Positions 13,031 to 41,325 of a stretch of 42,181 nucleotides of DNA are shown here, one piece after another. The DNA is from a virus. Numbering within the stretch: position 1 is the stretch's first letter; every line of letters starts with the position of its first letter. The position numbers and the translations under genes are program-made. The stretch lies in the IMG/VR virus record IMGVR_UViG_3300002835_000390, positions 1 to 42,181 of that record; one strand, given 5' to 3'. The notes below the pieces were generated by a model. It made no database searches. It had not been told where the DNA came from and saw only the letters and a list, made by a program, of their open reading frames with translations.

Positions 13031-13050
13031 TTGCCGAAAGTTGCAAGCCT
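13031..13050 (-). terminator. Hairpin at the stop codon of the gp16-like gene
   Basis: AGGCTTGC and GCAAGCCT form a perfect 8-bp stem with an 8-nt loop, starting within the TAG stop codon. No U-tract follows, so it is more likely an mRNA-stabilising or attenuating element than a full terminator. Confidence 0.45.
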
Positions 13051-19000: not shown

Positions 19001-20668
19001 GCGCTTCTGGATCTGCCCGCTGAACTGCTTGACCTCGTTCTCGCTCATCCCGTACGGGTCGATGCGGATGTCGCCCATCAGCGCGGACAGCATCTCGCTG
19101 CGCCCCAGCTTGGTCGTCAGGTCCGCCGACTTGATGCGGATCATGTCGTTCTGACCCTGCACCGCCTGCAACTGGTTCGACACCTCGGGCAGCAAGTCGC
19201 GCAGAACGTCGAACGCCGACTTCTGGAGCTTGCCTTCCGCCGTCGCCGCCTCGTCAATCGCAGCCAGCCGCGAGCGCAGCGTCTCGCTGTTGATGAAGAC
19301 CTCCTCGACAGCCTGCCCCTGCACCGACTCTTGGAACTGCCGCGCAAGTTCAGGGTTCCGCTCCGTCAGCCGGCTGTCGTTGGTGCCCTGCACCATGGCC
19401 TTCAGCACTTGCGTGTCGATGTTGGCCTGCTCGGCGCGCTTCATGTCGGTCACGAAGTTCGCCATGGGGCCGGGGAGGCCCAAGACCATCATGCTCAGGA
19501 CCGTCTTGCTGGCGATCTCACCGATGCGGTCGTAGATCTGCTGGCGGCCCTGCGGCGTCGCCATGAGTTGGTCGAGTTCGGGGCGGCTGAACGCCTTGGC
19601 AGCCTCGCCGCCAGCGATCTGGGTGATCTCTTGGAACACCTCGGTGCCGACCTCCGCACCGACGCCCTTCAGGTAGGCCATGGCAGCCTGCCCAAGGCTG
19701 GTGGTTGCCGTCTGCGGCTTGAACACCTTGGGCATGACCTTTCTGCCGAGCTTGCCGCCCAACTGCTGGAACGGCTTCAGGGCATACTTGCCGAGCACGG
19801 TTTCCGCCGCACCGTTGATGATGCCCACGCCGAGGGCTGCCGTACGGGCTTCCTCCTCGCCGTACCCGCTTTCGAGGTAGTCCAAGTAGGCGTTGCCGCC
19901 CTCGATAGCCGCCGTTTGGGCACCAGTGGTCAGCAGGAAGGCCGTGGGGGCCGAAACGATCGCCAAGGGCGGAGCGACAGCCGCCACCGCCGAAGCCGTC
20001 CCAGCAGCCGCCAGGGACGCCGGCAGGGTCTTGCTCATCTGGCCTACGACCTCTGCCGTGCCTCCGCCCATGCCGTACAGCAAGCCGCTCATCTCGGGCA
20101 GGCGGGGAGCCTTCTTCATCTCCTCCAGCCGGTCGAGGTCCGCCTGCGTAGACCAGCCCATGGCGATGCGGGTGCCGATCTCGCCGCGCTCAACCATCAT
20201 GCGGCCACGGCTGTAGTTCTCCCCGACCCACTGCCAGAAGCCTTCAATCCGCTGGAGGTTTTCGAGGTCGTCGTACGCTTGCGCGGCGAAGTCGTACTGC
20301 CGCATCTGCGCCGACAACTGGGGGTACTTCTGGTCGAAGGCCATAGCCTCCGCCTGCCGCTGCTTGGCAAGCTGCTCCGCGACCTTCCAGTCTTGGTCGG
20401 GGTTGTTGGGGTCAAGGCCCAACTGCTGCGAGACGGCGACCTTCTTCGCGTACAGTTGGGGGTCTTGCGACACCGCCGTACGGAAGTTCTGTAGCTGCTG
20501 CGACTTCTCGGCCTCGCGTTCAGCGATCCACCGCTGCGCCAGCAACTGCCCGCCTGTTGGCTGCTGGATGGCGGGGACCGCCTCCAACGCAGGCGGCGGC
20601 TGCACGACAGGCTGCGGCGCGGGCTTCGGGTCTTGGATGTCGGACGCGAGCGTGTCGGGAACTTCCAT
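13049..20668 (-). CDS. Giant internal virion/ejection protein (gp16-like, polyvalent)
   Basis: At 2539 aa this is the largest gene, about 1.8 times T7 gp16. It follows gp14- and gp15-like genes, so it should be a core protein ejected into the cell. In order: polar N-terminus; hydrophobic segments near residues 210-260 and 385-405; Pro/Gln/Ala-rich linker (about 640-700); an ADP-ribosyltransferase (ART)-like domain about 750-960 (LWHGT with H757, then LGVHLGNQGQAEMF, GYDGVVYKNE, GDSFIVFAP), as in large polyvalent proteins; an HELMH zincin motif at 1028-1032 with a downstream HETVAYSWEAWL; a long coiled coil (about 1200-1700); and a C-terminal membrane-active region with hydrophobic stretches. 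No lysozyme or transglycosylase motif was recognised. The ART part is unusually low in GC. The start at 20668 has a weak SD. Confidence 0.8.
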   Translation of the reverse strand: MEVPDTLASDIQDPKPAPQPVVQPPPALEAVPAIQQPTGGQLLAQRWIAEREAEKSQQLQNFRTAVSQDPQLYAKKVAVSQQLGLDPNNPDQDWKVAEQLAKQRQAEAMAFDQKYPQLSAQMRQYDFAAQAYDDLENLQRIEGFWQWVGENYSRGRMMVERGEIGTRIAMGWSTQADLDRLEEMKKAPRLPEMSGLLYGMGGGTAEVVGQMSKTLPASLAAAGTASAVAAVAPPLAIVSAPTAFLLTTGAQTAAIEGGNAYLDYLESGYGEEEARTAALGVGIINGAAETVLGKYALKPFQQLGGKLGRKVMPKVFKPQTATTSLGQAAMAYLKGVGAEVGTEVFQEITQIAGGEAAKAFSRPELDQLMATPQGRQQIYDRIGEIASKTVLSMMVLGLPGPMANFVTDMKRAEQANIDTQVLKAMVQGTNDSRLTERNPELARQFQESVQGQAVEEVFINSETLRSRLAAIDEAATAEGKLQKSAFDVLRDLLPEVSNQLQAVQGQNDMIRIKSADLTTKLGRSEMLSALMGDIRIDPYGMSENEVKQFSGQIQKRAGEMQKSISEKAQQDKEWRDSANRVRDMQAQQIRQAGRSALEARIGASLYSVIVQRMAMLEGVTPEQWHAAKGMTTMGAAAQPAAAVQPPAWLSQMAAPEQAQPTQEVAAAEPQAAPAQPTVQPIDQAKTLLADPSAQITPEQRAELEQYVQQAESQPLRSITPEQDTAYLAAVEAGDLETAQRMVDEAAKRAGYKRKLWHGTAATTDVVEAVSSSAGDKEQQLFQELRDIGAKFGFAEDVAYMLERQLQYFPDDANQQGITQEVATRARSLEESLQKLRRKTRSRPVRQLEFDVFNFPSDGKELGVHLGNQGQAEMFGDAFPFFVDLRKPLRLPDLGTWGYQSVMREARKAGVSISESEYESVFNASDNNAALRELLISKGYDGVVYKNEAEGTGDSFIVFAPRQAKLADPVTRDAAGNVIPLSQRFDQTKESILYSQQPEAGVGGTYSRLMRRTVLNQGPNGARETTWFHELMHFMFDTHADMIARGVATEQMRADFMELLRFAKFEGTLEEYLALPSEKQRVIHETVAYSWEAWLLEGQSPSLSMTRIFSAIRKFFVDVWKQLSGINEAYKQETGQDLPGLTPEVRAVFRRMVAAEDQIKLAEATRAAVPLFLDKETWTKLGNPAEDWDKYRAAERDRIDEAVTQLTRRSMTVLGQLHGTFDERLAKLQKEAAGVREAMRDEATAEVQKQRVYRLRDFLADGTERRDTGEVSEQKAAVHGLNREALTQMPLAANVVMTDLNQQVEAARILHEMWLGQEIRPLMRMPEVRASGSGNVKQTQNRITNAETKLAKLAANAPERVELEAKLKTLRDELAKRSMVAEERAALEAQKDVIRAENDEIRKANAEIDAKQRETKEALDAAIAAQKVGLRKVEAEELRRAKKHKLAQYLTEDGLDPAQVAEQFGYADTAEMLQDLLKSPEMSEAVENELDRRMLRDYEDLSSPEALEEAVTASLHNEANTRWLTMELNALQRAQRMGDNRPEAMEEQSQKEQLLADMRADLDALNNRLAQEKEANDLAAVAATEAERESLREAIEQVKKDADGALSMRIMRASARMAAEQALSGKKISEIRPDLFAAAERRSSRDALARLTENDLPGAIQAKRDQLLQNQMAQEAQKIRAYVQRTTKWFNAFFRKKDTSLARNRSLEHIYAIRAILLAYGFGGSTARQAAKAQQAAEFMTQLQKYEPARYAEINALIEKAKVRKMSFRDLTVDEFKVLDGTLRTLWEEAKQEKTILAEGKRVAVEEIEKQVADRAAEIAPKGPRPGQKEALTPIQTAIRTFQGILSSMRRAQSVFDEFDGKLPGVFTKYFWRPIQEAVLQYRAARDKYHAQFVAILQKVAPYMNNRIEDSWAITEKHIGYKFKTMQELVAALTHIGNLSNKSKLTVGGRGKGFEWAVYDEKTGIVNTSKFDAMIAELAESGILREEHFDAAQEIWNLNEEMKPGIQRVYRMKYGQFMDEVKATPFTITFQDGKTKTYAGGYVPAKVDREIVYDLNNPSSMAEVEQQFRDAVPVTGWGFTIARMNRYMKPLDLDLSRQFQHIEFVQRFVNVQPALWGVTRLLRSDVISGAFNSIDPTVIPNTIMPWLEKVASQRTGTPSGSPWFDSALRTVRNRAGMAIMFGNLSNTVQQITGFSLALLKVKPSYLFGALRRIVLTSGAERRAAYEFISTKSLLMNQRFRTQIFQLQEDMNEVLLNPSKFDKAKSYAKKHAYFMQQTVQNVMDAVVWSGAYEQALAAGVAETEAIARADAAVTMTQGGTQPELVARVEGGTEFVRTFTQFTNYFNMMFNLNYGEFAKLVRESGWRSNKGQLFSTWVMGMAAPTIVAAAIANAFSGKLDDEDDDGYAGDLAWFGIDALMRGTLSMIPGGSAIGALTINRLDDVTYNDQMLNTPVAGALTRAFGGTFALIEAAASPDKDVTGRKIRDALTMLDLLAGLPVSGIASKAGYAIESATGVQENYNFLDALRGSLTGTAAPGNRQK
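17821..18360 (-). other. Low-GC segment inside the gp16-like gene (ART domain)
   Basis: By hand count GC is about 48% (262 of 540), while sampled flanking lines are 67-73%. The segment coincides with most of the ADP-ribosyltransferase-like domain and stays in frame. This is what a recently acquired domain insertion would look like. Confidence 0.7.
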
Positions 20669-23895: not shown

Positions 23896-26800
23896 CTAGC
23901 TACCTACAGCGACTTCGATGACGATGCCGTTGACGGTCAGCCCCGAAGGGTTGGACTGCCGCACCAAGATCGACCCGTCTTGGCTCCACGCTGGCAGAAG
24001 CGTGACTTGACGTTCAAGGGATGTTTCCGTCGTTGGCAACTCGCCCTCTTGCACAAGCTCCGATTCGCTCGGGCCAACGCTGTAGTACGCATCCTCCTTG
24101 GCGATGCGGAGCCAAGCCTTGTTGACGTTCTTCGTGCGGCCCTGACCGAGGCCGTCGATCTGCATGGCGATCGGAAGCGTCTCCAGTTCCGATTTGTACG
24201 GGATGCCGACCATCACGCGAGTCGCGTAGGTCAAAAGCACCAGCACACCAGAGGCATCGACTTGCTGCCCAAGGTACGGGATGCCGTCCGCAACAACGTC
24301 CACGGTCCTGCCGGCCAAGTTGGTGGCTCCCGAAAACGTGGCTCGCGCCCAAGCCCATGTGGCAATGGCGACGTTGCGCATGGCCGCAGGCAGAGCTTGC
24401 AGAAGTCGCACCCGCGCCTGCGAGCTTGAGATGCGCTGCACAACCTGCCCACGGTACGACTGGTCGCCGCTGCGGAACTCCAGCACATCGTTGAGGTCGG
24501 AGTTCAAGAACACAGAGCCGATCAGGCTGTCCGTCACGGTGACGAGCGCACCTTCGTTCCAGCCGCCGTTCTCAAACTCGGTGACGATCAACTGGCGGCC
24601 ACCCGTATGCGTTCCGTCGTAGTCCAAGCTGCTGTCCAAGTAGCGGCTGGAGTCGCCAGTCGCCAGCACATCAGTTAGCCGCTCGATGTAGCGACAGGTA
24701 ACCCCGTTGGTCTGCCTGCGGACAACGCAGTACATGCTATCCACCTGTCCCTCTTGGATGCAGGCGACCGACTCAAACACGCCGTCCGTGTCGTGTTGGT
24801 GCCACGCGGTGATTTCCTCTTCTGGAGCGTAGGTCAGTCCAAGCAGGCCGCCGGACGAACTGACGAACCATGCGATAGACAGAGGCGACCGCATCAATGC
24901 CAAGTCGGCAAGCGTCTTGTCGTCAAACAGGTGCAGAGCACGCAGGCTCAGATCCGCTGTCGTGTACCCCTGCGCGTTAAAGTTGAACGCGAGTTGATGC
25001 ACATGCCCGCCGCGAGCCGCGCAGAACAGCAGGGCGTTGCTGACGAGAGCAGGCGTCACGAAGCTAGAGCCGATGTAGGACTGAGGCCGCACAGCCACCG
25101 TAGACGGAGTAACCGCTTCGCTGTTGATCGCGGTGACTCGCCACTCGCCTTGATCGGTCAGCAGCAGCAACTCTCCTGCGTTGACGATGTGCCTGATTTT
25201 GTGGTTCTCGCGTGCGCGGATGGACAACGAGATGCGGTCGCTGTCCTTGATCGGGATGCTGAAGCTAAGGTCTTGGTCAGTGTTGCTCCGCGTCATCCAC
25301 AGCTTGTTCGCGGCCTTGTTCGTGTTGGCCAAGACCTTGCGCTGCTCAAAGTAGCCGACAGCGGACGCGTAGTTGTCCGCAGTTTGCGTAAGCGTCGTGT
25401 CCAAGATCGGGACCGTCTTGCTGACATCCGGCGTGATGTTGTCATCGCGGAACGTGACGCTGGCCGACGTGTCGGTCTGCCCGATCCAACCGAACAACCC
25501 GTTGGTGCGCTTGTAGATGTTGTAGCGACGGATGGGCGAGCCGCCGACAGGGTTGGGAACCTGCGTCCAAGTGAGCACGTTGTACGTCTCGCGGGCGTAC
25601 AGGTTGTTCTCGACGCTGACTTGCGCGCTGGGCTGGCTCTCAACCCCTTCCTCGTCCACAGCCGTCACGACGTAGGTGTTGGTGCTCTGGCTGTCGTCAG
25701 GCCACAACTCAAACAACAAAGGTGGGTTGATCGTTGATGCAGCAGGAACGTCAAGAATCTCTCCGACGCCAAGACCAGCCAGCCCCAGATTGGTCTGGCT
25801 GTTGGCTTTGATCTCGAAACAGTCTGTTTGCGGAGAGCTATTTATGCGAGTGATCTTGGCGATCGTGAACACTTGGTTCTGAACTCGCGCGTGCAAATTA
25901 GCCGGCGTGCCTGAGTTGGAGCCTGTAAAGCACTTAACGGTGTCGCCAGGGACGAACGGGTACGTCTCAGCATTTGCGCTCGCGTTAGCAAACGACCTTG
26001 GCGATGTGGCTCCGCCGAACTGCCCAACTTGCTCGATTCGGTATCGGATCGCTCCGAACGGTGTGGCAGCCAGTCCCGTCGGAGCGGCCATCGGTGGCGT
26101 ATACGACGCATACTCCCACGACCACTGAAGGTCCGTAGTGCGCTTCAGGATCAGCGTTGGGCGGCTCCGGTGCGTGATCGTCAGAACGTTGAGATCTTGC
26201 GCGTAGGTCAACTCCATCAACTCGGAGTCGCTGTAGTTGTTGTTGTGCGCAAGTCCGGACGCTGGCGCAACAAGTGCCCACACCGTTGGGGAGTTGACGT
26301 TGATTCCGTAGTTGACCCAGTTGTCAGTGGACGAGCTAGACGAAAACGTCGCAGAGTTGGTTTGGTAATAGTTTGCCAGTCCTTCGTCAAAGCGAAGCGA
26401 GCCTTGCGCGTAGTACGCCGCCACCGTGAAGTTGTTGGTGCCTGCGCTGCTGTAGCTGTTAATGGACGATCCGCCGGCAGTCTCCTTCAGCTTGAACGTC
26501 GTGCTCGACAGCTTATCAATGTAGTACAGCGAGTTGACGCCAATAAATGACGCCGGAGTGACAGCCTTGAAGATGGTCAGGTTGCTGGTTGCCCATGTGG
26601 GCTGGGTGCCGGTGTACGCAGGGCTGACTTGGCTTCCTACGCGATAGCGAAACTCTGTGCTGCTGATTACATCAACATAGAACCAGCGCAGGCTGCTGCC
26701 GCTTTCGCGCATGATGACGGCATCGTTTGACCGAAGCCCATGCGGAGCCGTGGTCGTAAAACTGCTGCCTTTAGCATTCCATTGCCACTCTCCGACGTTG

Positions 26801-27282
26801 GCGATCAATGACACCTGCGCAGGCCCCTGCGAAACATCTGTGTACAGCGCGCCGACGTTTGCCGCTGTCAGACCGTAGATCGTTATTTGCGCGTCGTTCG
26901 GCAGGTTGTCAAGGTTGCCCGTTGTGAGGGTCCAGACTCCTGTAGAAGTGTTGACGGTGCAGGCTCGCGCAACAAAGTAGTTGTCTCCCGTCAGAGCAAT
27001 CTGCGCTCCGTTTCGATAGAACCGGACATGGTTCTGCGTCAACTCCAGCATCATGTGCGGAGTGCTGAAGAACGGGATCATGCGCGACTTTAGCGAGTTG
27101 CTACGCGCATCGTCAACGTACTGAAGCCCAGGACGCCGCTTCGCCGCGCCCTGCGGCTTGATGTACATGTTGCGGCACTTGCGAAGGCCAGACTGATGCG
27201 CCTTCTGGTCGAACCGACCGTACATCTCCTCGCTGACTTCGCCAGCGTTGAACGACAGTTGCAGGGCTTTGGTGTTCGGCAT
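23896..27282 (-). CDS. Tail tubular protein B (gp12-like nozzle), enlarged
   Basis: A 1128-aa protein; T7 gp12 is 794 aa. The N-terminus is diagnostic of the family ('LQLSFNAGEVSEEMYGRFDQKAHQSGLRKCRNMYIKPQGAAKRRPG'). It forms the tail nozzle below the adaptor. Extra length comes from beta-rich modules around residues 160-300 (for example SNDAVIMRESGSSLRWFYVDVISSTEFRYRV and SLYYIDKLSSTTFKLKE) and fibronectin-like parts near 560-620. The C-terminal third has the conserved 'WRVTAINSEAVTPSTVAVRPQSYIGS' block. The start at 27282 is 2 nt after the upstream stop. Confidence 0.9.
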   Translation of the reverse strand: MPNTKALQLSFNAGEVSEEMYGRFDQKAHQSGLRKCRNMYIKPQGAAKRRPGLQYVDDARSNSLKSRMIPFFSTPHMMLELTQNHVRFYRNGAQIALTGDNYFVARACTVNTSTGVWTLTTGNLDNLPNDAQITIYGLTAANVGALYTDVSQGPAQVSLIANVGEWQWNAKGSSFTTTAPHGLRSNDAVIMRESGSSLRWFYVDVISSTEFRYRVGSQVSPAYTGTQPTWATSNLTIFKAVTPASFIGVNSLYYIDKLSSTTFKLKETAGGSSINSYSSAGTNNFTVAAYYAQGSLRFDEGLANYYQTNSATFSSSSSTDNWVNYGINVNSPTVWALVAPASGLAHNNNYSDSELMELTYAQDLNVLTITHRSRPTLILKRTTDLQWSWEYASYTPPMAAPTGLAATPFGAIRYRIEQVGQFGGATSPRSFANASANAETYPFVPGDTVKCFTGSNSGTPANLHARVQNQVFTIAKITRINSSPQTDCFEIKANSQTNLGLAGLGVGEILDVPAASTINPPLLFELWPDDSQSTNTYVVTAVDEEGVESQPSAQVSVENNLYARETYNVLTWTQVPNPVGGSPIRRYNIYKRTNGLFGWIGQTDTSASVTFRDDNITPDVSKTVPILDTTLTQTADNYASAVGYFEQRKVLANTNKAANKLWMTRSNTDQDLSFSIPIKDSDRISLSIRARENHKIRHIVNAGELLLLTDQGEWRVTAINSEAVTPSTVAVRPQSYIGSSFVTPALVSNALLFCAARGGHVHQLAFNFNAQGYTTADLSLRALHLFDDKTLADLALMRSPLSIAWFVSSSGGLLGLTYAPEEEITAWHQHDTDGVFESVACIQEGQVDSMYCVVRRQTNGVTCRYIERLTDVLATGDSSRYLDSSLDYDGTHTGGRQLIVTEFENGGWNEGALVTVTDSLIGSVFLNSDLNDVLEFRSGDQSYRGQVVQRISSSQARVRLLQALPAAMRNVAIATWAWARATFSGATNLAGRTVDVVADGIPYLGQQVDASGVLVLLTYATRVMVGIPYKSELETLPIAMQIDGLGQGRTKNVNKAWLRIAKEDAYYSVGPSESELVQEGELPTTETSLERQVTLLPAWSQDGSILVRQSNPSGLTVNGIVIEVAVGS

Positions 27283-27284
27283 GA

Positions 27285-30200
27285 CTAGCGAATGCTGATC
27301 CAGCTAGGGGTGTGCGAGGGCTTGATCTCGGCCTGCGTGGTCTTGTCGTGCGACGATGCCTGCATCATGTAGGCAGTAGCCATCTGAGCGCACCGCTTGG
27401 ACTCGGCGGCCCCGACATCGCCCTTGATGATCGGCCCCGCCAGCATGGACGACAGGTGCCACGACAAAGCGATCGTGAACAGCGTGCTGAACAGCGTCGT
27501 GTCCACGATCTTCGCGTTGTAGCGGATGACCGCCTCCTCTTGGTTGGTGTAGAGGACGCGGTTCCCGTGGATGTCCGACTCGACTACGAACTTTTGCGGG
27601 ATCAGCCTGCCGTTCACCACCCAATCGTCGGCGGCGTCGGGAGGCATCACCGCCAAGATGCCGCTGGCGTCCGCCGGCACTTCGTAGGCGTACTCCCATT
27701 CCGAGCGCGGGTTGTCCGTCTCGACAAGAGCCTTGCGCTTCAGCGCGAACGACCAGCTACCCATCTCCAGCAGGGTGTCGCGGGCTAGAGGATAGAAGCG
27801 AGCGCACAGAGCAGCCTGCGCCGAGCCGTCCGGCGGGTCGATGCTGGTGACCTTGGCCGTCTCCCCGATGTTGGCGAGAGCCAAGTTGCAGATGTCCACC
27901 TCGCTGGTGCCCATGCGCTGCACGGCAATCCACGCTTCGTAGAACCTCTGACCCAGCGTGTTCATGCCGGCACCCGTGTAGTGGATGCCGTCGAACATGA
28001 CGGGGAGGTCGCTCGTCTCAATCGCACGCGAGTAGGGGTCCGCGTCCGTCATCTTGGTGATGGCGGCGTTGACCGTATCGGCGTAGGTCCACAGCACGTT
28101 CGGGCGCACCTTGGACGCCAGCCACGGGATCTTGTGCGGGCTGACGCTGGCAAGACCACGGTCCACGATGGCCTGCCGGATGACCTGACGCAGCTTGGTG
28201 CAGTTGGCGTAGTAGCGGCTGGCGCGGCTTTCCGATGTCGCGTCTTCCTCTCCCTGCGCCCAGAAGATGCCTACGCACTCGCCAGTGTCGCCCTGCAAGG
28301 CGAACGCGGTCTTGGCGGCGTCGAGGACATCCAGCAATCGCCCAAAGCAGTTGTTCTGGTCGCCCGGTGCCCAACTGGTCTGCTGGTCGGGGTCGTACCA
28401 GCCGTAGCCCGTCGCGCCCAGAGCGGTCGTCTCCCGCTGCGCCAACCCGCTGCCGCTGAAGCCAAGCGGGATGACATGCATGGCTTCGCCAAGGTACTCA
28501 TGCATCCGCAGGGCAAGGCCAACGTAGTGCCCCTGCTTCGGCTGGATGCCCAGCGACGGCCCTTGGAACGGCTGGTACATGCCCGCCACGGGCGTGTAGT
28601 GGTTCGGGTAGTTGAACCCAGGCGGGTACGGGTTGCGCTTGTCCTTCTGGTGCTGCAACGCCAAGAACCCGGTCGATGCGGTGTAAGCACTTGAACCCGT
28701 GATTGGCGTGCCGCCGTAGGTCGCGGTCAGGTTGTAGGTGCCAAGCGTCCCAGTGGGCTGCAAGAAGTACGAACGACCGTAGACGATCTCCAGCGGGGTG
28801 CTGGTGCTGATGATGTCGAACACATCGTTGGTCGCCGGAGCCGAGCCGAACGGCGTGGCAAGCTGCGCTACCGTGCCTGACGCCGTGAGAATCTGCCGGT
28901 ACTGGCCAGCGAGCGCGCCGGTTCGGAACAGCACGACCTGATCAGGGCCGTAAGGGCCTCCCACCAAGGTGGCGCAGTTGATGACGCTTGCGGTCGATCC
29001 CGCCGTGACCGTGCTGTTGGTCGATGCCGCTCTGCCGCTTCCGAAGATCGCTGCCTGCGTGTTGGCAGCAAGGATGTCGGTCAGGAACGTGACGGTGATC
29101 GGCTGGCCCGCTCCAGCGCACGCGCAAGTAGTCCCAACGGGCTGCGTGCCCTCGGCCTCGCCCTCAAACGGCGACCACGGCAGCCACAAGGCGAACTTGT
29201 TGAACGGCGTGCTCTGGCCGCTGACGGTAGGCGGCTGGATCGAATAGGCGTCGCCTGCCACCGTGTTGTTCGTGAACGCAGGGCTGACCTCCAGCACGAA
29301 CTTGCCAGTCGTTGCGTCGTAGTAGACATCCCCACAGGATCGCGTCTGGTTGGCGTTGTTGCCCGTGAGCGGGGTTATCGTCAGGCCAGTCAGCGACCCA
29401 CGAGCTTGGTAGGCTCGCTCGGCAAAAGCCCTGTGGTAGCTGTTGGCTGCCGTCAACAGGTCTTGCCCAGCCACTTGCGTCATGGTGATCGGCAGGCTGC
29501 CGACCGAACCGATGGTGACACCTTGCAGCGTGATGCGCCGCTCCGCCGTTGGCTCGTTGGTTGTGCTCGACAAGCCGGAGATGGTGTAGGTCGTGTTGGC
29601 GGTGATGCCTGACGGCAGGCTCGCACCAGAGAACTGCACCTTGTCACCGATCGTTACGAAATGCCCTTCATCCAACGTGATGTGGTCCGTAGCTCCTGCG
29701 GCAACGCTTGCCACCGCCGTCGTGGTCGGGCGGCGCAGGTAGAACATCGTTTCGGTGTCTTGGACGGTCAGCACGCTGTTCGTTGCAGCCGATGCCGAAG
29801 TCACCTGAACGAACGTCGGGTAAGGCGTCCTACTCAGTTGAATGTTCTGCTCCAGCGAAGTAGTGAGCGTCACGCGAACGTAGTAGTCCACGCCAGCTAA
29901 GAAGCTACCAGTAGACGACTCAAACCGAATGCGGTCGTTGTCCGCCAACCCAGAGTTGAGGAACACATCGGCCCCGGTCGATTGAACCGTCAGCGTGCTT
30001 GTGCCAGCACTGTATCCAGTCACGGTTGCCGAGATCGGTCTGCACTTCTTGGCAACGATGTAGTCTCCAAAGGCGTCCTCGGTAAACGATGAGACGATGC
30101 CCTGCGGGACAGCAAGCGAGAACAGTGCCAGCACTGCCGTAGACGGAATCAGCACCGATCCGCCTCGCGTTGCAGACACTTGGATGTCCGATCCAGACGA

Positions 30201-31106
30201 TGTGACTACCCAATACGACTGCTGCGCACTCATGCCGCCGGGGATGGCTCCACTGACGCGGATGCAGTCGCCAACCGTGAACAGGTTGAATGTTAGCGTA
30301 ATGGTGCCCGTCGTAGTGTTGATCCCAGTTACTGGCATCGCCACCACCGTCCCTGGATCTGTCGCCCCACGCACCTTGACCGCTTCACCAACGCGCACAG
30401 GCTGGTTGCCGATGCGGAAGCGCGTAGGCACCTTGTTGGTCAAGTAGCCCGGCGTCGCGTAGATCTGCGCTGAAACGCCTACCGTGTAGCTGCCAGGGTC
30501 GTTGACACCTCCTACGACGCTACGCAGCAGCACCGTGCTCGTCGTGCCATTCGCTCCGCCAACGAAAGGATAGGTGAACTCCTCTCCAACCTCCGGCAGA
30601 GGCGACAGATCTGGGCTGACGCTCACCTCAGAGTCGCTGGAGTTCGTCACCGTGTACGAACGCCCATCGCGCTTGCGCGTGATGGTCAGGCCAGTCGCGT
30701 CGTACTGCCACTTGCAGTTCGTGACCAGCTTTCGCACCGACGAGCCAGCCTGCACCGTGCAAGTGCCAGGGTACTTCGTGAACGACGCCCCCAGCACGTT
30801 GGTCTGCGTCGGCACCGGGTCGTAGAACGTCAGCATCTTCACGGCCTGCACCGCAAGGCCCTTGGTGCTGACCGTCTGCCACGGGCTGCTCTTCGGCCCC
30901 GTGCCGTAGCGAAGCGTCTGCCGGCCTCCCGCGAACGTCACCGGCAGCGTGAACGTGTCGCTGTAGCTGCCTTCCCCGAACTGCGTCGGGGCGATCTGCG
31001 GGTTCCGCAGAGCGATCTGGAGGTTCTGGTCCTCCCAAGACTGGGCATCACCGATCGCGGTGCTGTTGCTCTGCCCGACTGCCAACAAGAACTTGCGCTT
31101 CGCCAT
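27285..31106 (-). CDS. SGNH-type esterase fused to tail tubular protein A
   Basis: A 1273-aa protein in one open frame. Residues 1065-1273 (209 aa) are a complete tail tubular protein A/gp11-type adaptor (MGTSEVDICNLALANIG..., ARFYPLARDTLLEMGSWSFALKRKAL). Residues 1 to about 1060 carry a split sialate-O-acetylesterase-like SGNH hydrolase: GQSN with Ser13, Gly-rich FSGSG near 883-887, WAQGEED at 949-955, and D1039/H1042 in FDGIHYT. A large beta-rich insert contains three similar modules (about 250-320, 360-445, 465-540). The adaptor's own ATG (27914) has no SD, so the fusion looks genuine. It could strip acetyl groups from host surface polysaccharide. Confidence 0.85.
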   Translation of the reverse strand: MAKRKFLLAVGQSNSTAIGDAQSWEDQNLQIALRNPQIAPTQFGEGSYSDTFTLPVTFAGGRQTLRYGTGPKSSPWQTVSTKGLAVQAVKMLTFYDPVPTQTNVLGASFTKYPGTCTVQAGSSVRKLVTNCKWQYDATGLTITRKRDGRSYTVTNSSDSEVSVSPDLSPLPEVGEEFTYPFVGGANGTTSTVLLRSVVGGVNDPGSYTVGVSAQIYATPGYLTNKVPTRFRIGNQPVRVGEAVKVRGATDPGTVVAMPVTGINTTTGTITLTFNLFTVGDCIRVSGAIPGGMSAQQSYWVVTSSGSDIQVSATRGGSVLIPSTAVLALFSLAVPQGIVSSFTEDAFGDYIVAKKCRPISATVTGYSAGTSTLTVQSTGADVFLNSGLADNDRIRFESSTGSFLAGVDYYVRVTLTTSLEQNIQLSRTPYPTFVQVTSASAATNSVLTVQDTETMFYLRRPTTTAVASVAAGATDHITLDEGHFVTIGDKVQFSGASLPSGITANTTYTISGLSSTTNEPTAERRITLQGVTIGSVGSLPITMTQVAGQDLLTAANSYHRAFAERAYQARGSLTGLTITPLTGNNANQTRSCGDVYYDATTGKFVLEVSPAFTNNTVAGDAYSIQPPTVSGQSTPFNKFALWLPWSPFEGEAEGTQPVGTTCACAGAGQPITVTFLTDILAANTQAAIFGSGRAASTNSTVTAGSTASVINCATLVGGPYGPDQVVLFRTGALAGQYRQILTASGTVAQLATPFGSAPATNDVFDIISTSTPLEIVYGRSYFLQPTGTLGTYNLTATYGGTPITGSSAYTASTGFLALQHQKDKRNPYPPGFNYPNHYTPVAGMYQPFQGPSLGIQPKQGHYVGLALRMHEYLGEAMHVIPLGFSGSGLAQRETTALGATGYGWYDPDQQTSWAPGDQNNCFGRLLDVLDAAKTAFALQGDTGECVGIFWAQGEEDATSESRASRYYANCTKLRQVIRQAIVDRGLASVSPHKIPWLASKVRPNVLWTYADTVNAAITKMTDADPYSRAIETSDLPVMFDGIHYTGAGMNTLGQRFYEAWIAVQRMGTSEVDICNLALANIGETAKVTSIDPPDGSAQAALCARFYPLARDTLLEMGSWSFALKRKALVETDNPRSEWEYAYEVPADASGILAVMPPDAADDWVVNGRLIPQKFVVESDIHGNRVLYTNQEEAVIRYNAKIVDTTLFSTLFTIALSWHLSSMLAGPIIKGDVGAAESKRCAQMATAYMMQASSHDKTTQAEIKPSHTPSWISIR

Positions 31107-31131
31107 GGAACACCTCGGTCAGATAGCACAA

Positions 31132-31660: not shown

Positions 31661-32686
31661 TTACGCCACAGCGGTTTCGTTGGTGGTCAAAGCATCGACC
31701 TTGCGGACAGGAATGCCCTGGAAGGTCAGCCACGACATCGGGGTGCCGAACTGCGACAGACCCTTCTCGATGTCCAGAACGCCCTGCGTGCGGTCCAGAG
31801 CCTGGATGCGCAGGCCGCTGTACATCGTGCGGTTCATGTAGAAACACGGCTTGATGCCGCCGAACGACGGGAACCGATCGATCGCACGGGCCATCAGCTT
31901 GATGATGTTGGTAGCCGCCGCCGTGGCCTGCGTGCCGCTGGCCGTGGTGAACAAACCGGAGACGGAGGTGTCGATGTTCGCAATGCGAACGACGTACCGC
32001 CAGTCCTTGACCGCAAGACCCGGCTTCCACTGGAAGCGCGAGACGTACGCTTGCATGCGGTTGTCACCCGAGAAGATGGTCTGGATACCCAGATCTTCCT
32101 TCATCAGGCCCGCGTTGCTGCCCTTCGGGAACGGGCAGTAGACCGTACGATCCGACCAGCCCACCAAATAGATGGACCCAAGATTGGAGCTACCGCCGCC
32201 GCTCAACACGTTAACGCTGTTGCCAGAACCGGAAAGCGAGTTGTAGCGGTTTTGCAGACCGAGGAACTGCTTGGGGTCCGTAGCCGGATTGCCACCGAAC
32301 AGGCCCTGCACGAAGGTCTGGTTCATCGACTCGATGAACGCGGAGTCTTCCGAAAGGCGGAACTGGCTGGTGTTGCCGTTCAGCTTGGCGAGGTCAACGT
32401 CCATCTCCGAACGCGCCTCGATCATCGCGCATGCCTCGTCCACCTGAGCCGTCGTGCTCTTGCTCGACGGGATGCCCTGGTTCAGAGCGCGGTAGTAGGT
32501 CGTCGGGAGGCCGGTGCGGATGACGACTCGATCGCCGGTCGGGAGGTTGCCCTCCTTCCACACGCAGTCCTCAAGGACTTCGTTGGTCTGGCTGAGAAGT
32601 TCCGCGATGTCACCGATGCTGCCATCGGGATGAGTACGCTTGGCCCAGTCGGCCAGCGTGAGGTTGCTGCTTCCAAGAACTGCCAT
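31661..32686 (-). CDS. Major capsid protein (BPP-1 Bbp17-like)
   Basis: A 341-aa HK97-fold candidate of the BPP-1-type podovirus family. Recognisable blocks: LTLADWAKRTHPDGS near the N-terminus, IAELLSQTNEVLEDCVWKEG then NLPTGDRVVIRTGLPT, 'SSKSTTAQVDEACAMIEARSEMDVDLAKLNGNT', FRLSEDSAFIESMNQTF, and YVVRIANIDTS. The C-terminus carries 'TFQGIPVRKVDAL', a common end of the family. It lies between scaffold and Bbp16-like genes. The SD is poor for such an abundant protein. Confidence 0.92.
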   Translation of the reverse strand: MAVLGSSNLTLADWAKRTHPDGSIGDIAELLSQTNEVLEDCVWKEGNLPTGDRVVIRTGLPTTYYRALNQGIPSSKSTTAQVDEACAMIEARSEMDVDLAKLNGNTSQFRLSEDSAFIESMNQTFVQGLFGGNPATDPKQFLGLQNRYNSLSGSGNSVNVLSGGGSSNLGSIYLVGWSDRTVYCPFPKGSNAGLMKEDLGIQTIFSGDNRMQAYVSRFQWKPGLAVKDWRYVVRIANIDTSVSGLFTTASGTQATAAATNIIKLMARAIDRFPSFGGIKPCFYMNRTMYSGLRIQALDRTQGVLDIEKGLSQFGTPMSWLTFQGIPVRKVDALTTNETAVA

Positions 32687-32707: not shown

Positions 32708-33328
32708 CTACTTCGTCGAGTAGAAGGACTCGGCGATGGTGTTGAAGTCTCGCGGGCCAGTAGGCTTCTGGCCCGAAGTGCTCTTGCCGCCCACGAAATG
32801 ATCCGTCGAGATCATCTCTCCGGCCTTGCGGAACAACCGCACCATCTCGGGATGGTTGGCGAGGCCGGAATCCTTCAGCAGTTCCTTGAGGGTCGGAGAA
32901 GCAAGTGCCTCGTACGCCTTGTTGGCGAGCTTCAGGCTCTCATCGAGCTTCGCGCCGCCGAACTCGGGATCGTTCTTGGACTGCTCAAGCCATTCGGCGC
33001 GCAAGTTCGTCAGCTTGGTTTCCTCGGCCTTCTTGAGAGCCGGGGCCATCTGATCGAGCATCTTCTGCGCGCCTTCTTGGTTCAGACCCATGGACTTGGC
33101 GAGGTCCGTGTACGTTGACAGGACGTTGGCGTCGTACTCACCCTTCAGGGTGTAGTCCTGAGCCTTTGGAGCCTCGCTGTTCTGCTGCTTGCCTGCCTCG
33201 GCATCCTGCTTCGGCGCGGCTTGTGCCTCCGTCTTCGCAGGCTCCGTTGCCGGGGTCTGCGCAGGCGTAGTCGCTGCGGCTTGGCCTTGGTTGGTGGTTG
33301 GGGCGGCCCCCGTCAGCATTTCAGTCAT
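32708..33328 (-). CDS. Scaffolding protein
   Basis: A 206-aa acidic, Ala/Gln/Thr/Lys-rich protein. The first 55 residues are low-complexity and probably disordered; residues about 57-140 are helical and highly charged (YDANVLSTYTDLAKSMGLNQEG, MLDQMAPALKKAEETK, LRAEWLEQSKNDPEFGG), the typical podovirus scaffold pattern. The C-terminal part ends with a conserved-looking RDFNTIAESFYS. It is directly before the capsid gene. The ATG at 33328 overlaps the previous gene by 8 nt. Confidence 0.85.
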   Translation of the reverse strand: MTEMLTGAAPTTNQGQAAATTPAQTPATEPAKTEAQAAPKQDAEAGKQQNSEAPKAQDYTLKGEYDANVLSTYTDLAKSMGLNQEGAQKMLDQMAPALKKAEETKLTNLRAEWLEQSKNDPEFGGAKLDESLKLANKAYEALASPTLKELLKDSGLANHPEMVRLFRKAGEMISTDHFVGGKSTSGQKPTGPRDFNTIAESFYSTK

Positions 33329-34822: not shown

Positions 34823-34984
34823 CTAGCTAGCGCGCAGGACTTCGAGGTCGGCAGCGATCTGCGCCATCTCTGCGTCGATCTGCTCGATGCGGTCCACGTC
34901 ACCGAGGCGCAGTGCGCAGGTCCGCTGCGTGCCCAGGTTGACCATCGCGGCCTCGTACAGTTCGATCCGTTGGGCGGTGTCCAT
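34823..34984 (-). CDS. Hypothetical helical protein, 53 aa
   Basis: The ATG at 34984 shares its A with the TGA of the kelch-like gene (TGATG), so translation is probably coupled. It is a single charged helical hairpin (DTAQRIELYEAAMVNLG; VDRIEQIDAEMAQIAADLEVLRAS). No membrane segment. It may be a chaperone-like partner of the large structural protein before it; no evidence beyond position. Confidence 0.6.
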   Translation of the reverse strand: MDTAQRIELYEAAMVNLGTQRTCALRLGDVDRIEQIDAEMAQIAADLEVLRAS

Positions 34985-36414
34985 CAGATCACCATTTGGC
35001 GCAGATGGATTGCCGCCGTGTTGTGCAGCATGTGGACGTAGAAGATCTCCGTCGCACCGTCCTTGTAGACCACGTCGAACGCTGTGTCGCCGACGATCGC
35101 CGCGCCCTGCGGGTACAGCATCGTTGACCAGGGGAACATCTCAGACCGGGCGAAGTCGAACGCGAACCAGCGGCCCGTCGCCTCCTTCTGGAGGTAAAGG
35201 ATGCCGCCGATGAGCGCGTACTTGCTGCCCGTCGTGAACGTCTCTGCGTTCGGCGAGTAGGTGATCGTCGCCCAGGTGTTCGCCGCGATGTCGTAGCGGT
35301 GCAGGGCCGCCGTGCCCGCGCCCTGGAACGAGTAGATGTAACGCCCGTTCAGGATTGCCGACTCGTTCGTCCAATCCGTCTCCGACGCGCTGTGTACCCA
35401 GTGCGCGCTCATGCCCGCGCCAGGAGCCGCCGCACGCGCCGCACCGGGCGACAACGTGCTCCAGGTGTTCGCCGTGATGTCGTAGCGGTACAGCGTGACC
35501 GCGTTGTTGCCGAGGTAGTACAGGAAGTTGTCGTTGCCCTCGATCGCGTAGACGCTGGTCGCGTCCGGCGTCGCGGTCCACGTCGCAACGGTGAGCGTGT
35601 CGGCGGTGTTCGCCGTGATCGTGCGGATCTGGCCCGCGCCGGTGCCGCCGGTGATTCGTACCTGCGAGTTGATCCACTGCGACGCCGTCCAGGTCTTGCC
35701 CGTCTGCACGAGCGTCGTGGCCGTCGCGCTCGTCGCGGTGCCGGTGGCGAACTGCTTGAAATCGCCGTCGATGATCGACGGCGTGGCCACCAGCTTGCCG
35801 TCGGTGCCGAGCGACGCCGCGAGTCCCGCCTGCGCAAGCGTCGTGTAGGTGTTCGTCGCGTAGTCGTAGACGCGGAAGCTGCCGGAGGCGAGCGTGCCAC
35901 CAGTCAGCAGATACCAGCGCGGCGTCAACAGGCGGTACACCGTCGAGGCCGAGAACGCGCTCGCCTGCGTCGCTACCGTGATCACCGCCGACGCGCCCAC
36001 CGTGTTGCGCACGATGTCGAGCACCGCACCGTTGTTCGGACCCGACAGAATGTGGATCTTGTAGCCGCGAAGATCACGCGCCAACGTCTGGTTGGTCGTG
36101 ATCGTGCTCGTCGTGCCCGCCGTCGCGGTCAGCGACGCCGCGCCCACCGTCGAACCCGTAGACCATGCGCTAGCCACCGCCGACGCGCCCGCTGCCAGCG
36201 CGGGAGTCAGTGCCGGGGACGCAAGCAGCACCCATCCGTCTTCGCTCGGGTTGTAGATGTACGCCTCCGTCGCGCTGCGGAGGAAGAACTGCTGCTGCCG
36301 GAAGTGCCGCGACGAGGCGATGCACGATGCGGCGGCGGTGGCGACTGGAGCGGGGGCGCAGAACTCCCACCGCTTCATGTCGAGGATCTTGCGATTGCCG
36401 TTCGTTGTTGCCAT
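34984..36414 (-). CDS. Kelch-like beta-propeller structural protein
   Basis: A 476-aa protein. The N-terminus 'RKILDMKRWEFCAPAPVATAAASCIASSRHFRQQQFF' leads to repeated blade-like units with a kelch signature: 'IYNPSEDGWVLLASPAL', VYDYATNTYTTL, 'LYRYDITANTWSTLSPG' and LHRYDIAANTWATITYS, each giving Y-D-x-x-x-N-x-W. Between them are two inserts with TGGTGAGQIRTIT and SGPNNGAVLDIVRN type turns. Such propellers in phages are structural, maybe head fibres or surface-binding. It sits between portal and scaffold genes, unusual for a tail fibre. Confidence 0.72.
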   Translation of the reverse strand: MATTNGNRKILDMKRWEFCAPAPVATAAASCIASSRHFRQQQFFLRSATEAYIYNPSEDGWVLLASPALTPALAAGASAVASAWSTGSTVGAASLTATAGTTSTITTNQTLARDLRGYKIHILSGPNNGAVLDIVRNTVGASAVITVATQASAFSASTVYRLLTPRWYLLTGGTLASGSFRVYDYATNTYTTLAQAGLAASLGTDGKLVATPSIIDGDFKQFATGTATSATATTLVQTGKTWTASQWINSQVRITGGTGAGQIRTITANTADTLTVATWTATPDATSVYAIEGNDNFLYYLGNNAVTLYRYDITANTWSTLSPGAARAAAPGAGMSAHWVHSASETDWTNESAILNGRYIYSFQGAGTAALHRYDIAANTWATITYSPNAETFTTGSKYALIGGILYLQKEATGRWFAFDFARSEMFPWSTMLYPQGAAIVGDTAFDVVYKDGATEIFYVHMLHNTAAIHLRQMVI

Positions 36415-36417
36415 GTG

Positions 36418-36861
36418 TCAAGTCACCGAGATGTTGCGGCGCAGATTGTCGGACTGCATGTGCAGCAGCGCCGGAACGTAGTCGTTTGCGGCAAAGCCGC
36501 CGATCTGCGTCTGATTGGTCAGTGTGCTGACGGTCGCCAGCGTCTGGCTGCCGGCGATCGACGCCGTGACGGCGAGGTTGGCCGCAGTCGGCTGCCTTGC
36601 CTCCATGATCGGCCAGCCCTGCGCAGACGGCAGCGACTGGCCGATGCTCCGCGTCAGCGAGTGAACCGCCATGCGCAGGGCCTCGATGGATTCGACCAAC
36701 TCGCCGTACGCGGCGACCGGCAGCGGGTTCGTCGCGCTGGTGTCCGTCGCGGTGCCGTCCGCACCATGCACGGGCTTCACGCGCTGGAAGAGAACGCCGC
36801 CGATCTCGTCGGCTGCTACCGTTGCGCCGCTTCCCGGCGTGTATCCTACGTTGTCGGCCAT
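36418..36861 (-). CDS. Conserved phage structural protein, 147 aa
   Basis: The N-terminus 'ADNVGYTPGSGATVAADEIGGVLFQRVKPVHGADGTATD' and 'NPLPV' form a motif I recognise from many phage structural proteins of unassigned function. The middle is a helix (LVESIEALRMAVHSLTRSIG) and the C-terminus a beta region (GSQTLATVSTLTNQTQIGGFAANDYV). The ATG at 36861 follows the previous stop by 2 nt (TGACCATG). It probably assembles with the propeller and fibre proteins flanking it. Confidence 0.7.
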   Translation of the reverse strand: MADNVGYTPGSGATVAADEIGGVLFQRVKPVHGADGTATDTSATNPLPVAAYGELVESIEALRMAVHSLTRSIGQSLPSAQGWPIMEARQPTAANLAVTASIAGSQTLATVSTLTNQTQIGGFAANDYVPALLHMQSDNLRRNISVT

Positions 36862-36863
36862 GG

Positions 36864-38036
36864 TCAGACGTACTGGAGGTAGATGTCGCCGTCAGCGCCG
36901 CCGGTTGGCGACGCCGTACCGCTGCTGATGTTTTGCGTTGCTGCGCTGCCGAGGCCGAGCGTCGTGCGCTGCGATGCGGCGTCAGCGTCATCAATCAGTG
37001 CGCGGCCTGCTGCGGTGCATGAGATTGTCTCGGGAACGCCAGTGCTTGGAGACTGGCGACCGATCAGCGTGTCGGTGGCGAGGTTCGCCATCTTTGACAA
37101 CGTGACCGCGCCCGTGGCGATCGTAGTCGTGTTACTGCCGGCGGATGCCTCGACATCGCCAAGCAACTGGCTGCGCCTGATGCCGCTACCGTGGAACTCG
37201 ACACCGTTGCCAACGCCGACTTCCTGCGGTGCCCCGGTGCTACCAGCGTGCCGGCCAACCAGATGGTGGCTGGTGATGTCCTGCATCTTGGCGAACGTGA
37301 CAGCCGCATGGTCGATCGTCCACGTTGCGCCAGACGCCGAGACGGTAATGTCGCCCTTGTCGCCGTCCGTCACGCCGCCACCAGTCGCCGCCAGCGTGGT
37401 GCCGGTCATCGAAAGGCCCGATCCGAGCGTGATCTCTTGCACGTCGCCCGAGCCGCTGTCGCCACGGCCAAGCAGCCGCGACGCCGCCGAGACGTTCTGA
37501 ATCTTGGCGTATGTCACGGCATCGTTGGCGATCGTCGCCGCGAAGCTGCCCGTGCCGCTGCCGGTGACATCGCCGGTCAGCGTGATGGTCTGATCGCCTG
37601 TGTTCGTGCCGCTGCTGGTGCCGCTGAACGTGCCCGACTGCGTCGCCAGCGTGCCAAGGCCCAGCGTCGTGCGCTGCGCCGCCGCGTCAACGTCATCGAG
37701 GATTGCTCGGCCTGCTGCGGTACAGGCAATCTCCTCGATGTCGCCAGCCCCCGCCGTGCTGCGCCCGAGGAGGCGATCCGTAGCGCTGACGTTCTGGATC
37801 TTTGCGTACGTCACCGCGTCGTTGTCGATCGTCCACGTCGCGCCGCCTGCGCTGACCGTGATGTCGCCCTTGTCGCCAGTGGTCAGGCCCGTGCCCGCCG
37901 CCGCCACGACCGCCCAGTACGTCGTCCACGAGCCGCCGACGCCCGGCTCGTCGCCCGCACTGCTCGTGTGGTCTAGGATGCAGACGTAGCTGCTGCCACC
38001 GTTCCCGACAACCTGCCCGCGATAGTAGACGGTCAC
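36864..38036 (-). CDS. Repeat fibre protein with CBM-like N-terminus
   Basis: A 390-aa protein. The first 45 residues (VYYRGQVVGNGGSSYVCILDHTSS..., W-x-T-Y-W) resemble a chitin-binding/CBM5_12-like carbohydrate module. The rest is a tandem array: GDKGDITVSAGGATWTIDND and a diverged copy, AVTYAKIQNVSATDRLLGR in three forms, and CTAAGRAI/LIDD-DAA-QRTTLGLG twice. Such repeats build trimeric phage fibres. The GTG at 38036 overlaps the previous stop (GTGA) and has AGGGGG 7 nt upstream; GTG at 38042 is less likely. It may bind host or matrix glycans. Confidence 0.75.
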   Translation of the reverse strand: MTVYYRGQVVGNGGSSYVCILDHTSSAGDEPGVGGSWTTYWAVVAAAGTGLTTGDKGDITVSAGGATWTIDNDAVTYAKIQNVSATDRLLGRSTAGAGDIEEIACTAAGRAILDDVDAAAQRTTLGLGTLATQSGTFSGTSSGTNTGDQTITLTGDVTGSGTGSFAATIANDAVTYAKIQNVSAASRLLGRGDSGSGDVQEITLGSGLSMTGTTLAATGGGVTDGDKGDITVSASGATWTIDHAAVTFAKMQDITSHHLVGRHAGSTGAPQEVGVGNGVEFHGSGIRRSQLLGDVEASAGSNTTTIATGAVTLSKMANLATDTLIGRQSPSTGVPETISCTAAGRALIDDADAASQRTTLGLGSAATQNISSGTASPTGGADGDIYLQYV

Positions 38037-38308
38037 GACCACGCCCCCTGGTACTGCGACAGGAAGATTCCGTCAGGAATGGTTCCACCCCACGACCCGG
38101 CCCATTGGAGATTGCCACCGCCCCCAGTGGAACTGATGACTTGCCACGAACCGTCGCCCGCCAAGAACTCGTCTACGTTTCCGCTGTAGACCAGCGACGC
38201 GCCTTGAGAGAACCCCAGCCGCAACACTTCACGACGGAGCACGTCGCCAGCCACAGGGATGTTCCTGGGCTGGTCGCGCTCGCCGCCGCGTCTGCTGCTT
38301 CCAGACAT
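38033..38308 (-). CDS. Small fibre-associated protein, 91 aa
   Basis: The ATG at 38308 shares its A with the upstream TAA (TAATG), fixing the start. The first 30 residues are basic and polar (SGSSRRGGERDQPRN); then LRREVLRLGFSQGASLVYSGNVDEFLAGDGSWQVISS, a motif style common in phage fibre and head-fibre proteins, and a Trp/Gly-rich end (LQWAGSWGGTIPDGIFLSQYQGAWS). Likely a partner of the following fibre. Confidence 0.65.
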   Translation of the reverse strand: MSGSSRRGGERDQPRNIPVAGDVLRREVLRLGFSQGASLVYSGNVDEFLAGDGSWQVISSTGGGGNLQWAGSWGGTIPDGIFLSQYQGAWS

Positions 38309-38817
38309 TACCAGAAGGCGACTGCGGTGGTGCCTGCCGTTGGGAACACGCGACGCGCCTTGATGGGCAGCCACAGCGACTGCGCGGCACCCGTGGTTAC
38401 CGAGAACTGCGCGGTGGTTGCACCAAGAGCACCTGGGGCAACATCGACATCAATGCTCACCGTCGTGCTTGGGCCGACGTAGACCGCGTTGCACGGCGTC
38501 GGGAACTCGATCACAAAGCTGTTGGTGTTTGCTGGCGTAGCCGAGAATGCCGTCTCAACTGTCACGCCGTCCGCCTGCACAGAGGCGATGCGCCGCGACT
38601 GACCCGCGCACGGGCCATCAAGAAACCGCAGATTCAGACCCACTACAGACAGCGCGCCTGCACTGGCTTGACTGGTGATCTTGATGACGGTTGCCGTCGA
38701 GCTTGCCGTAACCGTTCCGTTGTAAGCGATTCCTACTGCTTGTGGCGTAGGGAACGGATGAGCCAACCCGTATGTGTGCTGCCCAACGGGATCGACGTTG
38801 TAGAGAGGTGCAACCAT
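38308..38817 (-). CDS. Head/neck structural protein candidate, 169 aa
   Basis: Directly after portal: TAG, then TCACC and the ATG at 38817. All beta in character: VGIAYNGTVTASSTATVIKITSQASAG, 'LNLRFLDGPCAGQSRRIASVQADGVTVETAFSATPA' and FVIEFPTPC. The insert 'DGPCAGQSRRI' resembles GPxxGQxRxI loops in phage beta-sandwich proteins, as in the kelch-like product. A structural role is likely; no exact family assigned. Confidence 0.65.
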   Translation of the reverse strand: MVAPLYNVDPVGQHTYGLAHPFPTPQAVGIAYNGTVTASSTATVIKITSQASAGALSVVGLNLRFLDGPCAGQSRRIASVQADGVTVETAFSATPANTNSFVIEFPTPCNAVYVGPSTTVSIDVDVAPGALGATTAQFSVTTGAAQSLWLPIKARRVFPTAGTTAVAFW

Positions 38818-40508: not shown

Positions 40509-40510
40509 GG

Positions 40511-40846
40511 TCACTCACCCAAAAGGGTGTTCTTGCCGATGCGGTCCATTTGGTCACCGATGCGGGTGTTGCCGGTCAGCAGCGTGCTGGCGGCACCTCG
40601 GCCCTGCGCGCCCTGTTCGCCGGTCAGCAGCGCGGCGACATCTGGGGTCTTCTGGTTCATGCGGCGCGACTCCATGGCGGCCTGTTCGCGTTCAGCCCCC
40701 GCCATGCGGAGGCCTTCGGCCTCTCCAGCTTGCTGCGCTCGAAACGCCTTCTTCTGGCCCTTGCGGCCAGTTTCGGCCTGATAAGCGGACGCTCCAGCAG
40801 CGGCCAGAGCGGCACCTGCAATGATGATGGTTGAAGCTGCTGCCAT
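40511..40846 (-). CDS. Small structural protein preceding portal, 111 aa
   Basis: The ATG at 40846 has AGGAAGT and sits 2 nt after the GNAT stop, which removes 42 out-of-frame-looking residues of the longest frame. It has an N-terminal hydrophobic helix (ASTIIIAGAALAAAGASAYQAE), a charged helix, and a C-terminus 'PDVAALLTGEQGAQ...GKNTLLG', a motif (LTG..G..LG..TLLG) I associate with minor structural proteins of many podoviruses. Confidence 0.65.
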   Translation of the reverse strand: MAAASTIIIAGAALAAAGASAYQAETGRKGQKKAFRAQQAGEAEGLRMAGAEREQAAMESRRMNQKTPDVAALLTGEQGAQGRGAASTLLTGNTRIGDQMDRIGKNTLLGE

Positions 40847-40848
40847 GG

Positions 40849-41325
40849 TTACTTCCTGTAGGAGTTCTCGACCAGTTCGTACCCCAGCTTGCCGTACAGA
40901 TTGCCGACCTTTTTGCTGATGGCTGGGATGCTGCTGACGATGACTTGATCTGCGTTCTTGCTTGCGGCCCACGCCTCAAACTGGCGCAGCATGCGAACGG
41001 CGGTCATGCCGTGTCTGTGCCCTGGCTTCATCCACCACGCAAGCTCGGCGGCGATTGTGCAGTTGGGAGCGCACCAAACTGGTGCCAGCATCCCAGCCAA
41101 GAAGCCAATCAGTTCGCCGTTGGGGTCTTCGGCAACGATGATGACGCCCTGCTCGATGATGTTCGACAGAGCGGCGGCCATACCATCGTCGGGCACGGTT
41201 ACGCCCTTCAGCATGGGGTGCTGATTCAGGAATGGCCGGCCTAGCTCAACTAGAGCCAGTACGTCATCTTGCGTGGCGTACCGCATTCTCAGCGACGCTA
41301 GGTCGCCGGAAAAACACTCATGCAC
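40849..41325 (-). CDS. GNAT-family acetyltransferase-like protein
   Basis: A 158-aa protein with the GNAT pattern: MRYATQDDVLALVELG at the front, VIIVAEDPNGELIGFLAGM (beta4), AELAWWMKPGHRHGMTAVRMLRQFEAWA (motif A region, with the R/Q-x-x-G-x-G/A loop replaced by HRHGM), and 'VSSIPAISKKVGNLYGKLGYELVE' (motif B). It would acetylate a small molecule or protein. The loop is atypical. The start is the GTG at 41325 or ATG at 41286. GNAT genes next to terminase occur in other podoviruses. Confidence 0.75.
   Translation of the reverse strand: MHECFSGDLASLRMRYATQDDVLALVELGRPFLNQHPMLKGVTVPDDGMAAALSNIIEQGVIIVAEDPNGELIGFLAGMLAPVWCAPNCTIAAELAWWMKPGHRHGMTAVRMLRQFEAWAASKNADQVIVSSIPAISKKVGNLYGKLGYELVENSYRK

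Follow-up and report, generated by a model that had tools for sequence, protein, structure and literature searches.

The window, that is, the whole 42,181-nt stretch of viral DNA analysed here (IMG/VR record IMGVR_UViG_3300002835_000390), carries on its minus strand a gene that joins a split SGNH/SASA esterase to a head-tail adaptor. Its frame is stop-free throughout 27285–31106, the ORF coordinates and length being exact. The features of this gene and its neighbours are as follows.

27285–31106, minus strand: fusion gene, 1273 aa, 135 kDa; split SGNH/SASA esterase and head-tail adaptor
31111–31116, minus strand: Shine-Dalgarno-like GAGGTG, from sequence, 5 nt upstream of the true fusion start
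30807–31106, minus strand: SGNH N-terminal block, residues 1–100, carrying GQSN; fold aligning with 1zmb from residue 3 on, dN/dS 0.06 against homologous contig L008
31068–31070, minus strand: predicted catalytic Ser13, in the GQSN motif
29409–30491, minus strand: variable insert part, residues 206–566; dS 1.5 against L008 (catalytic blocks 0.16–0.46), length varying among homologues
29067–29408, minus strand: conserved beta part of the insert, residues 567–680 (RGSLTGL...WLPWSPFEG), from homologue comparison
28662–29066, minus strand: second variable insert part, residues 681–815; module in common with a 169-aa protein at 38308–38817
27915–28661, minus strand: SGNH C-terminal block, residues 816–1064; Pfam SASA, fold, dN/dS 0.05
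28242–28262, minus strand: WAQGEED block, residues 949–955; Q951, G952, E953 and D955 invariant in A2
27981–27992, minus strand: DGIH motif with predicted catalytic Asp1039 and His1042
27285–27914, minus strand: gp11-type head-tail adaptor, residues 1065–1273; sole phrog_394 match in the genome
31188–31643, minus strand: Bbp16-like capsid cement protein (PF21190), upstream neighbour
23896–27282, minus strand: tail nozzle, 1128 aa (phrog_376), downstream neighbour
31661–32686, minus strand: major capsid protein, GP7 family (Pfam), BPP-1/epsilon15-like
38823–40514, minus strand: portal, head-to-tail connecting protein (PF12236)

Based on the portal, the GP7 capsid protein, the Bbp16-like cement protein and the nozzle, we assigned the window to a BPP-1/epsilon15-like short-tailed phage. 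The fusion gene sits between the cement gene and the nozzle, the slot that is occupied by a plain adaptor of ~220 aa in BPP-1-type phages and in Limnohabitans DC33.

The SGNH-hydrolase/head-tail-adaptor fusion is real. An initial annotation, made from the sequence alone, had described the ORF, Ser13 within GQSN, WAQGEED at 949–955, D1039/H1042 and Met1065 at 27914, and each lies where it had been placed. The single uninterrupted frame that it described is fully kept in eight further IMG/VR contigs (L002–L009), so that both chance and a sequencing slip are excluded as its source; the same independent contigs rule out a stop or frameshift at residues 1050–1065. Synonymous differences outnumber replacements in the adaptor part across the IMG/VR contigs, and divergent homologues with 26–53% identity also keep the fusion frame. 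A frameshift artefact was rejected, being already contradicted by the independent contigs. One other contig, L010 (IMGVR_UViG_3300049043_000052), has frameshifts through the fusion gene that split its adaptor match in two.

The esterase part matches the SASA family (PF03629, Pfam) over residues 911–1060, scoring 48.9 bits (cut-off 24.8). This match stops short of the nucleophile block of the family, which is nevertheless present, as Ser13 falls within the span aligned to acetylxylan esterase 1zmb; the DxxH pair (D1039, H1042) lies near the C-terminal end of the esterase part. Structure modelling of this part had been suggested with the initial annotation. The AlphaFold model of residues 1–1074 (mean pLDDT 69.7, pTM 0.59, much of the insert below 50) brings the two distant esterase halves together in one SGNH alpha/beta fold that matches 1zmb (Z 23.7, rmsd 1.9, 220 aligned, residues 3 to 1063). 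Since both halves match 1zmb, the catalytic domain is split by an insert, as had been proposed, though the insert is nearer 760 residues (~97–855) than the ~850 first estimated. The fold and the GQSN, QGExD and DxxH blocks are common to the fusion and to SASA/CE6-type acetylesterases (1zmb, 2apj, NanS 3pt5, SIAE), to which the fusion adds a phage structural ring and the insert of ~760 residues.

About 250 residues of the insert are conserved family-wide, and the shortest members have ~250 residues there. Compared with L008, the N-terminal catalytic block has a dS of 0.16, the insert 1.1–1.5, the C-terminal block 0.46 and the adaptor 0.25; the corresponding dN/dS values are 0.05–0.06 for the catalytic blocks, 0.03 for the adaptor and 0.11–0.24 for the insert. 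This unevenness of dS suggests exchange of the insert by recombination, and suggests that the insert, rather than the catalytic halves, is the exchanged, fast-evolving part. No positive selection on the insert was found against L008 and L005 (dN/dS <0.3). A recombination-swapped insert fits a specificity module without proving one. The beta module that residues 681–815 have in common with the 169-aa protein at 38308–38817 was matched with an E-value of 9e-5. The large beta inserts resemble modules of phage tail fibres (phrog_9370 and phrog_4711, PHROGs).

The adaptor part is complete, as the initial annotation had it: fusion residues 1067–1273 match positions 2–188 of the 190 in phrog_394 (PHROGs, E 2e-39). 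It shows 54–58% identity to the adaptors that Limnohabitans DC33, ctQRb9 and BPP-1-type phages encode as separate proteins, and Met1065 is the exact point at which those of BPP-1-type phages and DC33 begin. The joined architecture was modelled on a 771-residue homologue, L116 (AlphaFold, mean pLDDT 82.9, pTM 0.78), in which residues 3–539 match 1zmb (Z 24.4, rmsd 2.0, 221 aligned) and residues 547–766 match the Carin-1 connector 8ck1_E (Z 19.5, rmsd 3.1, 195 aligned); the adaptor fold of this homologue also matches T7 gp11 and LME-1. A helix (521–559) spans the junction in this model, and because the SGNH-terminal helix continues into adaptor helix 1, the enzyme is probably rigidly mounted. 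Stand-alone gp11-type adaptors (BPP-1-like Bbp14, DC33) and 8ck1_E agree with the fusion in gene position, fold and sequence (52–53% identity along the whole adaptor); unlike it, they measure ~200–225 aa and have no N-terminal domain. Profile, fold and conservation thus uphold the covalent joining of an SGNH hydrolase to a full head-tail adaptor, and the interpretation offered by the initial annotation is supported.

No Shine-Dalgarno-like sequence is present 5–16 nt upstream of the internal ATG (Met1065, first base 27914), in agreement with what had been noted before. phrog_394 is matched once in the window genome; of 11 other fusion genomes, 10 likewise give a single match, and in the eleventh (G011) the only copy is frameshifted and falls into two pieces. 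Half of the distinct adaptor fusions (15 of 30) lack a Met at the junction, and six homologues (L114, L174, L115, L116, L118, L179) have no ATG, GTG or TTG close to it. In fusions without a junction Met the adaptor cannot be made separately, and the startless junctions, together with the absence of a second phrog_394 copy in the 12 genomes, indicate that the fusion is the phage's adaptor. Internal restart at Met1065 was rejected for the family, half of the distinct junctions being without Met.

Starting from one frame that holds both folds, is conserved, recurs and has no separate adaptor beside it, we consider it probable that the fusion is the phage's only adaptor and that each subunit bears an N-terminal SASA/SGNH O-acetylesterase, giving a 12-copy collar that would act on or bind acetylated host polysaccharide. 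The T7-type adaptor is a dodecamer around the portal clip, has a channel of 40 Å at its narrowest and docks fibres (PMC6702177); the ring and its fibre docking are also treated in PMC10575957 and PMC9509320. Twelve fusion copies would assemble as such a ring under the portal, and because twelve 113-kDa domains cannot fit a 40 Å channel, the N-terminal parts would lie outside it and form the collar. The earlier proposal that the enzyme projects from the tail tube is not retained, the adaptor being a ring under the portal. The outward orientation of the SGNH domain and its activity as a polysaccharide deacetylase are inferences. In this position the esterase could strip O-acetyl groups from, or bind, acetylated host surface polysaccharide and so assist the short tail on its path to the membrane. 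The large beta insert of the catalytic domain may be an exchangeable specificity module. As a covalent part of the essential head-tail ring, the enzyme has its copy number and position fixed, and loss of the module would risk the tail.

The catalytic state varies across the family. The GQSN serine is present in 24 of the 30 clusters, missing from five and outside the covered sequence in one; the serine-less clusters, several of them in one clade, have GQNQ, GQNN or GEGN instead, and L110 has lost the histidine besides. Hydrolysis is therefore not needed everywhere, and since domain and fusion are kept in these five clusters, the SGNH part might be a glycan-binding or structural appendage, for example a fibre dock or capsule-binding lectin, rather than a working enzyme. 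The likeness of the beta inserts to fibre modules points the same way. However, in most lineages, that of the window included, every catalytic block is kept and under strong purifying selection (dN/dS ~0.05). We regard such an appendage as rather unlikely, although it is the most serious of the alternatives, and esterase activity in the window lineage is likely, as judged from sequence. That the esterase serves another step, namely, peptidoglycan deacetylation at DNA entry or clearance of O-acetylated polysaccharide at release, seems improbable: the SGNH fold does include the peptidoglycan acetyl-transfer/esterase PatB (7tlv, Foldseek rank 50, E 0.018), but the best-matching folds belong to SASA/CE6-type carbohydrate acetylesterases and to a cyanophage tailspike, and the adaptor remains outside the cell during infection.

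We give an equally low chance to cleavage or re-initiation of the polypeptide, by which esterase and adaptor would become separate virion proteins. The coincidence of Met1065 with the start of stand-alone adaptors and a protease-like gene (phrog_458) at 32708–33328 would suit such a separation, whereas the internal ATG without Shine-Dalgarno sequence, the junctions lacking Met or any of the three start codons and the unbroken helix through the junction of the homologue model argue against it. The chance of an assembly or annotation artefact appears negligible. The family is known from metagenomic contigs only and L010 is frameshifted within the gene, yet independent contigs with synonymous divergence and the distant homologues all keep the frame.

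The fusion is not confined to the window. Broader IMG/VR scans identified 51 loci with the SGNH part, and removal of redundancy by shared 6-mers left 30 fusion clusters, 20 with phrog_394, eight with Ad1 (phrog_477/DnaT_2) and two with other partners. At least 29 other clusters thus carry the fusion, on two or more unrelated joint proteins, and the joint seems to be a recurring place for mounting an enzyme. The same SGNH module followed by Ad1 was observed in L183, L184, L181, L185, L189, L195 and L198 and, from a later scan, in L219–L225. L181 also has genes for a portal, head morphogenesis, Neck1, a tail terminator and a tape-measure-like match, and based on these neck, tail and head genes it belongs to a long-tailed phage. 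The L191/L192 protein, encoded between terminase and portal, ends in a gpW-like domain (phrog_2545, E 9e-6; phrog_118, E 4e-5). The C-terminal domain of the L180 fusion gave no PHROG or Pfam match and is placed only by the adjoining Neck1 gene. At a weak locus, L201, an SGNH domain occurs in non-adaptor proteins. In the SGNH tree a phrog_394 fusion, L199, nests inside an Ad1 clade (support 100/99), which indicates that adaptor partners have been exchanged; the tree calls for no fewer than two to three such exchanges.

At L229:2280–4733, L230, L231 and L244, Ad1 follows another N-terminal part, of ~645 aa. By eye this part carries GDSQ...GSND...HYGG, resembling a GDSL/SGNH hydrolase, and a degenerate copy stands before it; against profiles it gave only a weak Lipase_GDSL match (E 0.066). 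We treat it as a lead towards a second independent Ad1 fusion. The wider proposal, to which we give slightly less than even odds, is that adaptors serve generally as places to mount enzymes: the SGNH module, with insert cassettes that can be exchanged, would have been joined to three or more unrelated adaptor families, in phages with short and with long tails, the GDSL-like tandem would have been placed on Ad1 independently, and collar esterases would set host surface specificity from the neck instead of the tail tip. That one module recurs on unrelated adaptors, whether the tail is short or long, speaks for selection for a neck enzyme and offers a direct test of phage collar function. Where adaptor genes in metagenomes are unusually long, annotation may be missing a function in host interaction.

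Spikes and fibres are known sites of virion enzymes that remove or bind the polysaccharide of the host. Reports on Moo19/B2 (PMC11654681), Possum (PMC9569702) and Aristophanes (PMC8471582) describe SGNH deacetylases on tailspikes or fibres; these too are virion-borne, but on a separate spike or fibre, whereas here the enzyme is N-terminal to the adaptor. The tailspike/fibre layout, a separate protein with N-terminal anchor and C-terminal enzyme, is reversed in the fusion, whose adaptor is C-terminal. Similarly, the SGNH domain of the cyanophage Pan3 tailspike (9vyh) matches the window esterase with Z 22.4 but sits on a separate spike. Among BFVD matches, adaptor-like proteins of Vibrio phages VP2 (741 aa) and JSF9 (504 aa) also combine the adaptor fold with extra domains, which are Ig-like and not enzymes, and UniProt A0A516LTA4 (1084 aa), which appears to be undescribed, matches the full fusion model with a TM-score of 0.72 by query length. 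No relatives of the N-terminal esterase part were identified among 50,697 phage records, and among the matches listed for the Ad1-type query L183 in the phage records all were in the adaptor part only. No prophage or host carrier of the SGNH part was confirmed in 84,980 genomes; among cellular genomes the major capsid protein has its nearest relatives at Sphingomonas L202 and Janthinobacterium L203, where the adaptors are plain ones. A literature search conducted largely outside subscription papers returned no report of an adaptor-fused esterase. The architecture is recurrent, built of two known families and apparently undescribed.

Several other genes of the window were noted. The nozzle has 1128 aa against 712 profile positions, leaving ~400 extra residues. 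Three genes between portal and protease (34984–38042) are probably separate fibre genes; their products are a Kelch-repeat protein (476 aa), one of 147 aa and one of 392 aa that has DUF5907 repeats and a weakly CBM5/12-like N terminus. The fibre-like genes at 36864–38042 and 34984–36414 may carry host recognition. A 2539-aa protein (13049–20668) with an LPD22 domain and a phrog_9880 match is probably a virion ejection protein. A GNAT-like acetyltransferase (phrog_1249) is encoded at 40849–41325, between terminase and portal, and its pairing with an esterase-bearing virion may be coincidence.
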